Program-made: the position numbers and the translations under genes
Notes under the pieces: model-generated
Database searches by the model: none
What the model saw: only the letters and a program-made list of their open reading frames with translations
What the model was told of the DNA's origin: nothing
Part shown: one piece after another, positions 2,967-42,126 of the stretch
How positions within the stretch are numbered: position 1 is the first letter of the stretch
Layout of the letters: each line of letters starts with the position of its first letter
NCBI RefSeq assembly: GCF_002797495.1
Contig: NZ_PGEZ01000001.1
Span: 2,852,001-2,916,000 of the forward strand
Source: Mumia flava
GTDB lineage: Bacteria > Actinomycetota > Actinomycetes > Propionibacteriales > Nocardioidaceae
Reading direction: 5' to 3'
DNA length: 64,000 nt

Positions 2967-3949
2967 CGGACCAGCTCCTTGTCGTGGGGTTCGGTCGGTG
3001 CTTCCGCGGTGGCGCCGGGCGCGCCGTGGCCGGTGAGGGCGAAGAAGACCTCGTCCAGGTCGGGCAGCGCGAGCCGCAGCTCGGAGACCGCCACGTGGTG
3101 CTCGTCGAGGGTGCGGACCACCGTGGGGAGGGTCGCGTCGTCGACGACGGGCACGGCGACGACACCCGTGCCGATCTCCTCCGCGCTCCGGCCCGCGACC
3201 CGCTCGAGCGCCTCGGTGACGGCCGGCAGGTCGGACGGGTTCGCCGGCCGGACCTGGAGGGTGCGGCCGCCGACGAGCGACTTGAGCTCGTGCGGGGTGC
3301 CCTGCGCGATCACGCGGCCCCGGTCGATCACGGTGATGGCGTCGGCGAGCGCGTCGGCCTCCTCGAGGTACTGCGTGGTGAGGAGCACCGTGGTGCCGGC
3401 ACGGGTCAGGTCGCGCACGATCTCCCACATGTCCTCGCGCTTGCTCGGGTCGAGCCCGGTGGTGGGTTCGTCGAGATAGATCACCTGTGGACGGCCGACG
3501 AGGCTCGCCGCGAGGTCGAGGCGGCGTCGCATGCCGCCCGAGTACGTCCGGGCGCGGCGCCCGGCGGCCTCGGTGAGCCCGAACTGCTCGAGCAGCTCGT
3601 CGGCCCTCGCCTGCGCGTCACGGCGGCTCAGGTCCAGCAGCCGGCCGAACAGCACGAGGTTCTCGCGACCCGACAGCTGCTCGTCGACCGATGCGTACTG
3701 CCCGGTGAGCCCGATCGAGCGGCGGACCCCGTCCGGGTCCCGGGCGACGTCGTGACCGGCCACCGAGGCGCGGCCGGCGTCGGCGCGCAGCAGGGTGGCC
3801 AGGATGCGGACGGCGGTCGTCTTGCCGGCGCCGTTGGGGCCGAGCACCCCGAGCACGGTGCCCTCGGGAACCAGCAGGTCGACGCCGTCGAGAGCAGTGG
3901 TGTCGCCGAACCTCTTGACGAGACCTTCGGCTTCGATCGCGTGTGTCAT
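2963..3949 (-). CDS. ABC exporter ATP-binding protein, DrrA family
   Basis: This 328-residue ATPase energises the adjacent permease. It shows Walker A (GPNGAGKTT, about residue 38), a Q-loop region (GLTGQYASVDEQLSGREN), the signature TYSGGMRRRLDLA and Walker B VIYLDEPTTGLD, followed by the switch histidine region. The C-terminal 80-90 residues (HHVAVSELRLALPDLDEVFFALTGH) match the DrrA-type extension. A GGAGG lies almost against the ATG. The gene sits 47 bp behind the GntR regulator gene on the same strand, so the order gntR-drrA-drrB probably forms one transcript. Resistance or export of a compound made elsewhere is possible but not shown here. Confidence 0.93.
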   Translation of the reverse strand: MTHAIEAEGLVKRFGDTTALDGVDLLVPEGTVLGVLGPNGAGKTTAVRILATLLRADAGRASVAGHDVARDPDGVRRSIGLTGQYASVDEQLSGRENLVLFGRLLDLSRRDAQARADELLEQFGLTEAAGRRARTYSGGMRRRLDLAASLVGRPQVIYLDEPTTGLDPSKREDMWEIVRDLTRAGTTVLLTTQYLEEADALADAITVIDRGRVIAQGTPHELKSLVGGRTLQVRPANPSDLPAVTEALERVAGRSAEEIGTGVVAVPVVDDATLPTVVRTLDEHHVAVSELRLALPDLDEVFFALTGHGAPGATAEAPTEPHDKELVR

Positions 3950-3967
3950 GCCTCCACGGTCGCGACC

Positions 3968-4000
3968 GGTGCTGTCAAGGTGCTGTCAGCGGCCTGTCAG
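3968..4000 (-). promoter_or_regulatory. Three CTGTCA iterons before the drrA-like gene (candidate operator)
   Basis: GGTGCTGTCA occurs at 3968-3977 and again at 3979-3988, an 11-bp helical period, and a weaker GGCCTGTCAG follows at 3991-4000. On the coding strand the middle copy presents TTGACA, a perfect -35 hexamer, but no convincing -10 is seen. The last copy overlaps the stop codon of the GntR gene. The spacing suggests protein binding to one face of DNA; the GntR protein is the obvious candidate. Confidence 0.35.
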
Positions 4001-4371
4001 TCCCACAGGTCGCCGACGAGGCGCTGGGCCTCCGTCCGTCCGAGGCCGAGGCGGCGGACGTCGGCGACGTAGTCCCGTGCGGCCCGTCGCGCAGCCTGCG
4101 CGGCGTCGCCCTCGAGGACAGCGCTGCGCACGTAGGTCCCGCGCCGGCCGCGGGTCTCGATCACGGCGTCGGCCTCGAGCGCGCGGTAGGCCTTGGCGAC
4201 GGTGTTCACGGCCAGCCCCAGCTCGTCGGCGAGCCCACGGACGGTCGGCAGGCGCGACCCGCCGGGGAGGGACCCGGTCGCCACGGCCGCAGCCACCCGG
4301 CGGCGGACCTGCTCGTACGGCGGCTCGTCGTCGGTCGGGTCGACGACCAGTCCGGGGATCGACGACGTCAC
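3997..4371 (-). CDS. GntR-family regulator, short YtrA-like type
   Basis: This 124-residue regulator has an N-terminal GntR winged helix (PPYEQVRRRVAAAVATGSLP, then SRLPTVRGLADELGLAVNTV and AYRALEADAVIETRGRRGTYV). Only about 45 residues follow, so it lacks a FadR/HutC effector domain, as in YtrA-type regulators that accompany ABC transporter operons. The GTG at 4371 is preferred because GAGGAGG lies 5 bases upstream; a longer frame to 4437 has no comparable ribosome site. It is first in the gntR-drrA-drrB run and divergent from pcrA, with 122 bp between the starts. It likely represses the exporter genes in response to a small molecule. Confidence 0.88.
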   Translation of the reverse strand: MTSSIPGLVVDPTDDEPPYEQVRRRVAAAVATGSLPGGSRLPTVRGLADELGLAVNTVAKAYRALEADAVIETRGRRGTYVRSAVLEGDAAQAARRAARDYVADVRRLGLGRTEAQRLVGDLWD

Positions 4372-4477
4372 GGTGCCTCCTCGACCACTCGCTCGGAGCA
4401 CCAGCGTACGGCCCCGGGGTGCCGGAGCCTTCTCCATCGTCCGGCGGTGCGGGGCCCGCGGTGTCGGGCCCCGGTCG

Positions 4478-4483
4478 TAGGCT
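4478..4483 (+). promoter_or_regulatory. -10 element of pcrA
   Basis: TAGGCT ends 10 bases before the ATG at 4494. A start site about 7 bases downstream would give a 5' leader of only a few bases and no Shine-Dalgarno site. Confidence 0.5.
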
Positions 4484-4493
4484 GGGACCCACG

Positions 4494-7052
4494 ATGAGCC
4501 TTCCGTTCCCCGTGCCCTCCGACCGTGCCTCCGACGCTGCCCGCGACCGTTCGAGAGGAGCCTCGGATCCGGCGGCGCCGTCGCACGCGCGACTCAGCGA
4601 CGAGGAGATCGAGGCGAAGCGCGCGGCCGAGGCGGAGCGCCTCCTGGCCGGCCTGAACGATCCCCAGCGCGAGGCCGTCACACACACCGGGGGCCCGCTG
4701 CTCGTCGTCGCCGGTGCCGGTTCGGGCAAGACCCGGGTGCTCACCCGGCGGATCGCCTGGATGATCTCCCAGTACCGCGTGCACCCCGGCTCGATCCTCG
4801 CGATCACCTTCACCAACAAGGCGGCGGCCGAGATGCGCTCGCGGGTCGCCGAGTTCGTGGGCGGACGCTCGAGGCTGATGTGGGTGAGCACGTTCCACTC
4901 CGCGTGCGTGCGGATCCTGCGCAAGGAGGCCCAGCGCTTCGGCTACACCTCCACGTTCACGATCTACGACGCAGCCGACTCCAAGCGCCTGATGACGCAG
5001 GTGTGCCGGGACTTGGAGCTGGACCCCAAGCGGTTCGCGCCGCGCTCGGTGCTCGCCTGGGTGTCCAACCTCAAGAACGAGCTCGTCGATCACGAGACCG
5101 CGGTGGCGAAGGCCGCGAACGACTCCGAGCGGACCTACGCCGCGGCGTACGCGACGTACCAGGAGCGGTTGAAGGCATCGAACTCGATGGACTTCGACGA
5201 CCTGATCATGACGACGGTCCACCTGCTCCAGGCGTTCCCCGACGTCGCCGACGTGTACCGGCGGCGGTTCCGTCACGTCCTCGTCGACGAGTACCAGGAC
5301 ACCAACCACGCCCAGTACGTCCTGATCCGCGAGCTGTGCAACGAGCCGGACTCCGACCTGCTCGTCGTCGGCGACTCCGACCAGTCGATCTACGCCTTCC
5401 GCGGCGCGAACATCCGCAACATCCTCGAGTTCGAGGCCGACTTCCCGTCCGCACGCACGATCCTGCTCGAGCAGAACTACCGCTCCACGCAGCACATCCT
5501 CGACGCCGCGAACGCCGTGATCTCCCGCAACGAGGGCCGCAAGAAGAAGAACCTCTGGTCCGCTGCCGGCAAGGGGGAGCTCGTGACCGGCTACGTCGCC
5601 GACGACGAGCACGCCGAGGCCCAGTACGTCGCCGACGAGGTCGACCGGCTCACCGACGAGGGTGAGGCGAAGCCCGGCGACGTCGCGGTGTTCTACCGGA
5701 CGAACGCCCAGTCCCGTGTGTTCGAGGAGGTGTTCATCCGCGTCGGCCTCCCGTACCGCGTCGTCGGGGGCGTGCGCTTCTACGAGCGCAAGGAGATCAA
5801 GGACGCGATCGCGTACCTCCGGGTGCTGGTCAACCCCGCGGACTCGGTGTCGCTGCGCCGGATCCTCAACACCCCGAAGCGCGGGATCGGTGACCGCGCG
5901 GAGGCCTGCGTGGCGGCGTACGCCGACCGTCAGCGGATCACGTTCTGGGAGGGTCTGCAGCAGGCCGAGGAGGCGCCCGGGATCGCGACGCGCTCCCTGA
6001 ACCAGGTCCGCGGCTTCGTCGAGGTGGTCTCCGGGCTGCAGGACATGGTCGCCGCGGGAGAGCCCGTCGACGCGGTGCTCGAGGCCACGCTGGCGCGGTC
6101 GGGCTACCTCGACGAGCTCGAGCACAGCACCGATCCGCAGGACGAGGCCCGTACGGAGAACCTCGCCGAGCTCGTCGCCGTGGCGCGTGAGTTCGTCTCC
6201 GACGCGGCGACGCTCGCGGACCTTCCGGCCTCCGACACCCCCGCTGGTCGAGGCGCGAGCGAGGTCTCGTCTCCCGGTGGTCGAGGCGCGAGCGAGGCCG
6301 CGTCTCCCGGTGGTCGAGGCGCGAGCGAGGCCTCGTCTCCCGGTGGTCGAGGCGCGAGCGGAGCGAGCGATCGAGACCCCGCGCCGGTCGAGCCTGCCGA
6401 GACCTCCGACGACGTTCTCGAGCCGGGCTCGGTCGCGTCCTTCCTCGAGCGCGTCTCGCTGGTCGCCGACGCCGACTCGATCCCCGACTCCGGCGACGGG
6501 ATGGTCACGCTGATGACGCTGCACACCGCGAAGGGGCTGGAGTTCCCGGTGGTGTTCCTGACCGGCCTCGAGGAGGCGGTCTTTCCCCACATGCGGTCGC
6601 TCGGCGATCCGAAGGAGCTCGAGGAGGAGCGCCGGATCGCGTACGTCGGGCTGACGCGCGCGGAGCAGCGGCTCTATCTCACCCGGGCCCTGGTCCGTTC
6701 GGCCTGGGGAGCGCCGTCGCACAATCCGCCGTCCCGCTTCCTTTCCGAGATCCCCACCGACCTGGTCGACTGGAAGCGCACCGAGGCCGACACGACGACC
6801 TGGTCGGGCGGGTACGCCCCGCCGTCGCGTCGTTCCGCGCCGATGCGTGCCGCCTCGGCCGACCAGGCCAGCCGGGCGAAGCGTGACGTGCCGAGCCTGA
6901 GTCCCGGCGACCGGGTCACGCACGACACCTTCGGCCTCGGCACGGTGGTGGCGTTGGAGGGTGCGGGGGACCGCGCGGTCGCGTCGATCGACTTCGGTTC
7001 GGAGGGCGTGAAGCGTCTGCTCCTCCGCTACGCGCCCGTCGACAAGATCTGA
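4494..7052 (+). CDS. pcrA: UvrD/PcrA-family ATP-dependent DNA helicase with a repeat-derived insert
   Basis: This 852-residue SF1A 3'-5' helicase acts in repair and in clearing replication-transcription conflicts. Motifs in order are the Q motif (LNDPQREAV), Walker A (AGAGSGKT, 73-80), Walker B (LVDEYQDTNH, about 264), motif III (VVGDSDQSIYAFRGA), motif IV (LEQNYRST), motif V (VTLMTLHTAKGLEFPVVFL) and motif VI (EERRIAYVGLTRA). The C-terminal segment GDRVTHDTFGLGTVV is the PcrA-type tail. Residues about 583-628, between the 2B domain and motif V, are encoded by four copies of the dispersed palindromic repeat and read as GRGASEASSPG units. This partly explains a length above the usual 720-780. 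The start was chosen from the TAGGCT -10 and the absence of upstream coding signal. Confidence 0.95.
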   Translation: MSLPFPVPSDRASDAARDRSRGASDPAAPSHARLSDEEIEAKRAAEAERLLAGLNDPQREAVTHTGGPLLVVAGAGSGKTRVLTRRIAWMISQYRVHPGSILAITFTNKAAAEMRSRVAEFVGGRSRLMWVSTFHSACVRILRKEAQRFGYTSTFTIYDAADSKRLMTQVCRDLELDPKRFAPRSVLAWVSNLKNELVDHETAVAKAANDSERTYAAAYATYQERLKASNSMDFDDLIMTTVHLLQAFPDVADVYRRRFRHVLVDEYQDTNHAQYVLIRELCNEPDSDLLVVGDSDQSIYAFRGANIRNILEFEADFPSARTILLEQNYRSTQHILDAANAVISRNEGRKKKNLWSAAGKGELVTGYVADDEHAEAQYVADEVDRLTDEGEAKPGDVAVFYRTNAQSRVFEEVFIRVGLPYRVVGGVRFYERKEIKDAIAYLRVLVNPADSVSLRRILNTPKRGIGDRAEACVAAYADRQRITFWEGLQQAEEAPGIATRSLNQVRGFVEVVSGLQDMVAAGEPVDAVLEATLARSGYLDELEHSTDPQDEARTENLAELVAVAREFVSDAATLADLPASDTPAGRGASEVSSPGGRGASEAASPGGRGASEASSPGGRGASGASDRDPAPVEPAETSDDVLEPGSVASFLERVSLVADADSIPDSGDGMVTLMTLHTAKGLEFPVVFLTGLEEAVFPHMRSLGDPKELEEERRIAYVGLTRAEQRLYLTRALVRSAWGAPSHNPPSRFLSEIPTDLVDWKRTEADTTTWSGGYAPPSRRSAPMRAASADQASRAKRDVPSLSPGDRVTHDTFGLGTVVALEGAGDRAVASIDFGSEGVKRLLLRYAPVDKI
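6241..6378 (+). repeat. Palindromic repeat array A, inside the pcrA coding region
   Basis: Four direct units begin at 6241, 6274, 6307 and 6340 with a period of exactly 33 bp, so the reading frame is kept. The first three are truncated and share a linker ending TCTCCC. The fourth is full length and ends GATCGAGACC. The unit core, GGTCGAGGCGCGAGCG, is the same as in the intergenic arrays near 22.2, 30.6, 35.7 and 42.0 kb. Confidence 0.9.
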
Positions 7053-21710: not shown

Positions 21711-22103
21711 ATGATTCGGATGCTCTGGAACATCGGCATCTCCCTGATCGGCGCTGCGATCGGGATCTTGATCGCCGGGTCGCTGTTGGACGACATGACG
21801 GTGTCGGCCGGGGGCTTCGTCGTCGCCGTGGTGATCTTCGCGATCGCTCAGGCGATCCTGTCGCCGTTCATTCTCAAGGTCGCGGTGAAGAACGCGAACG
21901 CGTTCGTCGGTGGCGTCGGCATCATCTCGACGCTCGCGGCGCTGATCGTCGCGTCGCTCCTGTCCGACGGGATCGAGATCAGCGGAGCGGGGACCTGGAT
22001 CCTGGCCGCGCTGATCGTCTGGCTCGTCGCGGCGCTCGCGACGCTGGTGGTGCCGTTCCTGCTGGTCAAGGCCGGCGTCCAGTCCCTGCGCGACGACGAC
22101 TGA
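21711..22103 (+). CDS. Phage-holin-IV-like small membrane protein
   Basis: This 130-residue protein is almost entirely four transmembrane helices (for example LWNIGISLIGAAIGILIAGS and WILAALIVWLVAALATLVVP) with a short charged C-terminus. The build matches the chromosomal four-helix phage-holin-family proteins common in actinobacteria and Gram-positives, which are not usually prophage remnants; no phage gene is nearby. Function unknown. Confidence 0.75.
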   Translation: MIRMLWNIGISLIGAAIGILIAGSLLDDMTVSAGGFVVAVVIFAIAQAILSPFILKVAVKNANAFVGGVGIISTLAALIVASLLSDGIEISGAGTWILAALIVWLVAALATLVVPFLLVKAGVQSLRDDD

Positions 22104-22108
22104 CCCGA

Positions 22109-22341
22109 CCGCTGGTCGAGGCGGGCTCAGCCAATCCGCTGGTCGAGGCGGGCGAGGAACGAGCCCGATCGAGACCCCTGGTCTCGATCACTCGCTTCGC
22201 TCGCGCCTCGACCAGCGGTAGGGTCTCGCTTCGCTCGCGCCTCGACCAGCGGTAGGGTCTCGCTTCGCTCGCGCCTCGACCAGCGGTAGGGTCTCGCTCC
22301 GCTCGCGCCTCGACCAGCGGTAGGGATGCCTCGACCAGCGG
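22109..22341. repeat. Palindromic repeat array B, two arrays meeting tail to tail
   Basis: On the plus strand a truncated unit (22109) is followed by a full unit (22136-22176, ending GATCGAGACC). On the minus strand a short fragment (22321-22341) and three identical-period truncated units of 34 bp (22287-22320, 22253-22286, 22219-22252) are followed by a full unit (22180-22218). The two full units meet with their GATCGAGACC ends together. The array lies between the convergent holin-like and mdh genes and fills this non-coding stretch. Confidence 0.92.
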
Positions 22342-22349
22342 CGGGTGCG

Positions 22350-30545: not shown

Positions 30546-30566
30546 CGTCGGGCCTCGGACACGACC

Positions 30567-30598
30567 AAGGGCGGGACACGTGATCGTGTCCCGCCCTT
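30567..30598 (-). terminator. Terminator downstream of the thioredoxin gene
   Basis: A perfect 14-bp stem (AAGGGCGGGACACG and its complement) with a TGAT loop, ending CCCTTCTGTC on the plus strand. It lies 80-110 bp after the thioredoxin stop. Confidence 0.65.
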
Positions 30599-30609
30599 CT
30601 GTCGGTTCC

Positions 30610-30676
30610 GCCACTGCTCGAGGCGGAGCGACTTCCCCCCGCTGGTCGAGGCGGAGCGAAGCGACGATCGAGACCC
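30610..30676 (+). repeat. Palindromic repeat array C
   Basis: A truncated unit (from about 30610, CTCGAGGCGGAGCGA) is followed by a full unit (30639-30676) ending GATCGAGACC. It is the shortest array and ends 1 base before the thioredoxin stop codon. Confidence 0.85.
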
Positions 30677-30677
30677 C

Positions 30678-31070
30678 TCAGGCCGGGGCGTCACCGTTCT
30701 CGGACTGCTCCGCCTGCTGCTTGGCGACCTCGGCGCGCACCTCGTCCATGTCGACCTCGCGTACCGCGTCGATCACCTGCTCCAGCGCCGTAGCGGGGAG
30801 CGCCCCGGGCTGGTTGAAGAGCAGGATGCCGTCGCGGAACGCCATCAGCGTCGGGATCGAGGTGATCTGGAGGCCACCGGCGAGCTCCTGCTCGGCCTCG
30901 GTGTCGACCTTGGTGAACGTGATGTCCTCGTGGGACTCCGACGCGGCCTCGAAGACCGGCGCGAACTGGCGGCACGGGCCGCACCAGGAGGCCCAGAAGT
31001 CCACCAGCACGATCCCGTCGGAGGAGATCGTGTCCATGAAGCTGTCAGCGGTCAGGGCGGTCGTTGCCAT
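30678..31070 (-). CDS. Thioredoxin
   Basis: This 130-residue thioredoxin-fold protein has the active site FWASWCGPCRQFAPVF, the cis-Pro region ITSIPTLMAFRDG, and FTKVDTEAEQELAGGL. It has no signal peptide, so it acts in the cytoplasm as a disulfide reductant. The C-terminus carries an extra Glu/Gln-rich stretch (DEVRAEVAKQQAEQ). The ATG at 31070 gives the usual N-terminus; the frame continues upstream to 31193 without homology. Confidence 0.93.
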   Translation of the reverse strand: MATTALTADSFMDTISSDGIVLVDFWASWCGPCRQFAPVFEAASESHEDITFTKVDTEAEQELAGGLQITSIPTLMAFRDGILLFNQPGALPATALEQVIDAVREVDMDEVRAEVAKQQAEQSENGDAPA

Positions 31071-35716: not shown

Positions 35717-35789
35717 GGTCTCGATCGCTCGCGCCGCTCGCGCCTCGACCACCGGAGGGAGCTCGCTCCGCTCGCGCCTCGACCACCGG
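35717..35789 (-). repeat. Palindromic repeat array D
   Basis: On the minus strand a truncated unit (35756-35789) is followed by a full unit (35717-35755) ending GATCGAGACC. It lies between trpS and the 2H phosphoesterase gene, both on the plus strand. Confidence 0.88.
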
Positions 35790-41958: not shown

Positions 41959-41965
41959 CGTACGG

Positions 41966-42115
41966 CGTCTCGATCCTCGCTCCGCTCGGCCTCGACGAAC
42001 GACTCCCGCTGGTCGAGGCGCGAGCGGAGCGTGTGGGTTCCCGCTGGTCGAGGCGCGAGCGGAGCGTGTGGGTTCCCGCTGGTCGAGGCGCGAGCGGAGC
42101 GAGTGATCGAGACCC
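41966..42115. repeat. Palindromic repeat array E
   Basis: One degenerate full unit on the minus strand (41966-41998) is followed on the plus strand by two truncated units of 35 bp (42005 and 42040), identical in linker (GTGTGGGTT). A full unit (42075-42115) ending GATCGAGACC closes the array. It separates the convergent sdhCAB and SHOCT genes and fills the gap. Confidence 0.9.
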
Positions 42116-42126
42116 GAGGCCTTCTG

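Follow-up and report, generated by a model that had tools for sequence, protein, structure and literature searches.

Polar arrays of half-hairpin repeats in Mumia and their relation to a hairpin on one strand

Mumia is a soil bacterium, and in the window analysed here, a 64-kb stretch of a 4.40-Mb genome assembled in seven contigs, short repeats form arrays in which truncated units come first and a full unit comes last. This arrangement raises the question of how a repeat can grow on one side only, and always on the same side. The six arrays that a sequence-only reading of the window had listed were all found where it had put them, and they consist of the following features:

6246..6344, plus strand: three truncated units of 33 bp each, lying in frame within the gene of a UvrD/PcrA-type helicase
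6345..6378, plus strand: full unit closing the helicase-gene array
6386..6404, plus strand: 19-bp minimal form GGTCGAGCCTGCCGAGACC; similar 19-20-bp forms recur in other genera
22114..22140, plus strand: truncated unit of subfamily B (GGTCGAGGCGGGCTCAGCCAATCCGCT)
22141..22176, plus strand: full unit of subfamily B, 36 bp, with stem CGGGC/GCCCG and apex CGAG-GAA-CGAG
22180..22213, minus strand: full unit of the main array, 34 bp, preceded on the minus strand by the 5' tag CCGCT
22214..22315, minus strand: three truncated 34-bp units (5' arm plus linker ACCCTACCGCT)
22316..22336, minus strand: further truncated unit, 21 bp (GGTCGAGGCATCCCTACCGCT), first in the array
30610..30643, plus strand: degenerate truncated unit (CTCGAGGCGGAGCGACTTCCCCCCGCT), extent approximate
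30644..30675, plus strand: 32-bp full unit, sister subfamily
35717..35750, minus strand: full unit
35751..35784, minus strand: one truncated 34-bp unit
41966..42006, minus strand: adjacent element from a third subfamily, oriented the opposite way (GTCGAGGCCGAGCGGAGCGAGGATCGAGAC), extent approximate
42011..42080, plus strand: two truncated 35-bp units
42081..42114, plus strand: full unit

The core that all of them had been thought to share, GGTCGAGGCGCGAGCG, is exact in four of the six arrays, and those at 22109-22176 (plus strand) and 30610-30675 represent sister subfamilies with the cores GGTCGAGGCGGGCGAGGAACGAGCCCGATCGAGACC and GGTCGAGGCGGAGCGAAGCGACGATCGAGACC, respectively. The exact core has 13 copies in the window and 189 in the whole genome, against 0 for the reversed control. 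Its copy burst is lineage-specific, with 189 copies here versus 0 in five congeners; one of the remaining relatives holds a single copy. The neighbourhoods of the core were read from the matches listed, which cover about 175 of the 189 cores. Alignment of the 95 full units among these matches defines a bounded REP-like element of about 41 bp with sharp edges. Specifically, the conserved block extends from -5 to about +35 and reads CCG[C/T][T/C]-GGTCGAGGCGCGAGCG-N-AGCGAG-Y-GATCGAGACC-C, and the sequence outside it is approximately random. An unpaired 5' tag, CCGNY, precedes the hairpin GGT-CGAG...CGAG-ACC in Mumia, and the G at -3 and T at -1 of this tag are kept in other genera (NNGNT).

Four of the five congeners are rich in matches to a looser pattern, GGTCGAG...TCGAGACC, which is patchily distributed across the family, with 77-238 copies in rich genomes versus at most 2 in the control. 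The interiors of the elements it finds differ from species to species. An exact search for the full unit of this genome in the named genomes gave no match. Mumia and its relatives hold hundreds of short repeats with a hairpin on one strand only, and the family is a large, rapidly replaced set of hairpin repeats without RAYT. Being short, high-copy, extragenic at gene ends and hairpin-forming, the elements are REP-like in the wide sense. Rfam 15 at the gathering score returned no match anywhere in the 64-kb window, and no description of these sequences, of actinobacterial REPs or of polar half-hairpin arrays was found in the searchable literature, which is itself incomplete. Additionally, 19-20-bp minimal forms (GGTCGAGCTTGTCGAGACC and GGTCGAGCGAAGTCGAGACC) recur at loci L216-L255 of genomes G009 and G018 and may form the core of a broader repeat family in actinobacteria. 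Two hairpin subfamilies of G009, which belongs to another genus, alternate in opposite orientation in long, BIME-like clusters (L216-L226), with stems GGTTGC/GCAACC and AGGCGC/GCGCCT and GCA loops.

The sequence-only reading had proposed that every array carries its truncated units first and a single full unit last. Among the matches listed (about 175 of 189 cores), 84 clusters contain a full unit: 41 consist of one to seven truncated units followed by a full one, 34 are solitary full units, one has the order tttFt (t, truncated; F, full), its final t being a separate 19-bp form, and eight contain several full units (FFF five times, FFFFF, tFtFtF and tFF). Genome-wide extraction of the core with a polarity test thus never yielded the order full then truncated (0 of the 84 clusters listed), and the polarity stands, while the eight clusters with several full units show that a single full unit at the end is not absolute. 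The period, described as fixed at 33, 34 or 35 bp, is indeed fixed within each locus and ranges from 18 to 58 bp genome-wide. With full units as the anchor of the search, upstream truncated 5' copies outnumber downstream truncated 3' copies by 50 to 1 in this genome, by 27 to 2 and 11 to 0 in two congeners, and by 14 to 1 and 10 to 0 in two other genera with different element sequences. The five genomes together give 112 to 4, a count made per full unit with some units from one cluster; counted by cluster, the ratio in the window's own genome is 41 to 0. Since the counting starts from full units, these figures are free of search bias.

The truncation point lies at the apex of the hairpin. Among 108 distinct truncated units from five genomes, the 5' copy ends at a median offset of 0 nt from the loop centre (quartiles -1.5 and +3.5), and 77% of the ends fall within 5 nt of it, as compared with 42% for uniform ends (56% in the highest of 2000 draws). 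The arm grows with element length (rho 0.48, P 1e-7), from 11 nt in elements of 25-29 bp to 17 nt in 34-bp and 20.5 nt in 39-50-bp elements. The linker does not follow (rho 0.02); its median is 12-14 nt in every size class except the smallest (3 loci). Linkers are identical inside one locus, as had been noticed from the window, and they often equal the immediate upstream flank, with a mean exact suffix of 5.2 nt versus 2.0 nt for permuted loci (highest of 500, 3.0 nt). In many arrays the match between linker and flank is gone, and several junctions contain 1-5 unexplained bases. Only 4 of 175 distinct cores, among the matches listed, are without a strict full unit on the same strand within 300 nt; three of these four are near-full or lie beside a near-full unit, which leaves 1 of 175 truly without. 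Truncated copies are thus almost never found away from a full unit, which indicates that they are made on the spot, and the ends at the apex together with the resemblance of linker to upstream flank indicate that arrays start as local tandem duplications. In the founding event of an array, about 13 nt of the upstream flank and the 5' arm are duplicated in tandem, and the intact element thereby stays last.

As a separate observation, loci that form arrays have C-rich and G-poor upstream flanks and linkers at -6 to -11 from GGTCGAG, relative to solitary units.

The ends of the unit are not Watson-Crick inverted repeats, and their complete pairing requires tandem G.A pairs (CGAG opposite CGAG). 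With G.A allowed, the interior also pairs, one bulged position aside, and closes on a GNA or GNNA loop, the type found in most element types. Two positions vary inside the unit, the N of the GNA loop (16) and a C/T opposite G (23); both were left free in the search pattern with the rest fixed, and the same positions vary in an unbiased list of element types. Variability confined to these two positions is as predicted from the G.A hairpin. With RNA parameters, the GGTCGAG strand of the 34-bp unit forms the full hairpin at -13.3 kcal/mol (10 of 200 shuffles equally good), and the complement reaches -7.3 kcal/mol with the hairpin absent (115 of 200 shuffles equally good). The GGTCGAG strand folds better in 40 of 40 element types, DNA parameters included. 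Stems of a sister genus covary, with 95.4% of cells paired and 9 cells changed on both sides; none of 500 shuffles was as high, and every slid register gave zero doubly changed cells. This covariation fits RNA-level selection equally well. The earlier description of the repeats as palindromic therefore holds for the GGTCGAG strand under RNA parameters once tandem G.A pairs are counted, and fails for the fold with DNA parameters, which is no better than that of shuffles. A plain palindrome with DNA energies was set aside on the same ground, and the G.A hairpin was adopted after variants from sister species. With DNA nearest-neighbour parameters, another fold of the 34-bp unit (-5.6) is preferred to the G.A hairpin (-2.7), whose stability as DNA is therefore presumed from what is generally known of sheared tandem G.A pairs and GNA loops. 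A hairpin on one strand only provides a physical reason for the polarity of the arrays.

The window is syntenic with five congeners, and the arrays at all five window sites are absent in all five. As to the hallmarks of a MITE, the empty sites are too diverged to reveal a target-site duplication, and the unit ends are inverted only when G.A pairs are counted. The array at 6241-6378 lies in frame in the UvrD/PcrA-type helicase gene at 3795-7052 (plus strand), where it encodes GRGASE(V/A)(S/A)SPG repeats and enlarges a linker of the protein, a lineage-specific change absent in the five congeners. Periods of in-gene arrays are divisible by three at the sampled loci, and those of intergenic arrays are not bound to this, as judged from approximate and mildly circular gene calls by a codon-usage script. 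Arrays inside genes occur in both sense and antisense orientation. Intergenic elements occupy 25 convergent, 34 co-directional and 5 divergent gaps, so that divergent gaps are avoided, and the folding strand is more often that downstream of a same-strand gene. By eye, several of the congener gaps corresponding to 22090-22345, 30560-30700 and 41965-42120 carry a GC-rich, terminator-like inverted repeat, and the element arrays may replace or accompany terminators.

These observations bear out the proposal that the arrays grew locally, repeatedly and independently with one polarity rather than by copying of a finished array: linkers equal the flank, stray truncated copies are few, and the same polarity recurs in other species with other element sequences. 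The best explanation, in which we place roughly even confidence, is a chain that starts from the one-strand hairpin, passes through a nick or stall at its apex and a slip-back of the 3' end, and continues by slippage. Specifically, when the foldable strand is single-stranded, the hairpin would extrude; synthesis interrupted, or the strand nicked, at the apex would leave the 5' arm terminating in a free 3' end; this freed end could re-pair about 13 nt upstream of the element and copy flank and element again; and ordinary slippage between the direct repeats so formed would add later copies. Extension is possible from a 3' end only, and folding on one strand only, so the half copy would always come to lie on the 5' side. 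The model gives no reason for a left end 12-14 nt from the hairpin.

A dedicated non-Y1 enzyme that recognises the hairpin with its 5' tag, cleaves at the apex and some 13 nt upstream, makes half copies and spreads the full element is the strongest competitor, although we consider it unlikely. The near-constant linker of 12-14 nt at any element length could equally reflect such an enzyme, and the tag, conserved in other genera at -3 (G) and -1 (T), and the lineage-specific copy burst also speak for one. Against it, truncated copies do not turn up at new sites, and a Y1_Tnp family search found no member in nine genomes. REP-like elements are usually attributed to RAYT transposases, and the sequence-only reading had accordingly suggested a RAYT/TnpA-REP protein. 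The Y1_Tnp/RAYT family is represented in none of the nine genomes (this genome and eight relatives), although the control search detected it in 5 of 14 reference genomes, so a RAYT mechanism is not supported. The full element spreads to new sites without a detectable Y1 transposase.

Tandem duplication with random ends followed by slippage, with the polarity as an artefact of a core that sits in the 5' half, is improbable. Such a process would give clean tandem repeats whose linker is specific to the locus, as most arrays are, and it would suit the short flank homology seen in several duplications (for example L056 and L038); however, the ratio of 112 to 4 persists when the search is anchored on full units, with search bias removed, and the end points gather at the apex and track element length. 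Least probable of all is that a role in RNA (3'-end formation or mRNA stability) keeps the arrays and that polarity reflects selection rather than mutation. The location at gene ends, the folding strand downstream of same-strand genes, the terminator-like repeats of congener gaps and the stem covariation suit it, but arrays also lie within genes, sense and antisense, and selection leaves the apex end points and the flank-copied linker unexplained.

Three further origins were considered and rejected. A nascent-strand hairpin as the direct cause needs both arms in the first copy, and the truncated copies are without a 3' arm. Deletion from two full tandem units fails to predict a linker equal to the upstream flank; it also expects solitary truncated units, as does insertion of half elements at new sites, and these are nearly absent.

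Returning to the slip-back reading and its enzymatic counterpart, we tentatively suggest that a sheared-G.A hairpin on one strand might direct the polar copying, enzymatic or replicative, of exactly one arm plus a fixed flank. If so, it would constitute a distinct class of repeat-generating mechanism, active in several genera of this actinobacterial family. The directional signature ties array growth to the apex of a one-strand hairpin and points to strand-directed repeat growth, which opens the birth and direction of bacterial minisatellites to direct test with a cloned element of 41 bp. In-frame insertion into genes also occurs, here into that of a UvrD/PcrA-type helicase.

Several known systems invite comparison. 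The arrays fall outside CRISPR arrays, as their linkers are the same within a locus and often flank-derived rather than unrelated spacers. In hairpin-promoted slippage and trinucleotide repeat expansion, a strand-specific structure drives repeat growth; unlike trinucleotide expansion, Mumia duplicates one arm and a nearly fixed stretch of flank, strictly on one side. Rickettsia palindromic elements are palindromic repeats that enter genes in frame, a feature shared with the helicase array, but their length is far greater and their sequence unrelated. A REPIN consists of two REPs in inverted orientation and is mobilised with RAYTs. In Mumia, unlike in REPINs, a single unit is enough and the arrays repeat half units in direct orientation, and both are short, non-autonomous, dispersed and often clustered (PMC3116915). 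CGTC-tagged REPs, described mainly from alphaproteobacteria and without a dedicated transposase (PMC3733652), resemble the Mumia elements in being REP-like with no dedicated transposase, and differ in tag and sequence, CGTC being absent from the consensus. The tag of the 95 full units, CCG[C/T][T/C], and the lack of a RAYT place the elements outside the GTAG superfamily; the tag CCGNY (NNGNT elsewhere), the tandem G.A pairs, the polar half-unit arrays and the absence of Y1_Tnp from the nine genomes set them apart from GTAG-tagged REPs, with which they nevertheless share short length, high copy number, a preference for convergent and co-directional gaps, many lineage-specific families, an imperfect hairpin tagged at its 5' foot and adjacent units in opposite orientation (PMC3733652, PMC2817692).
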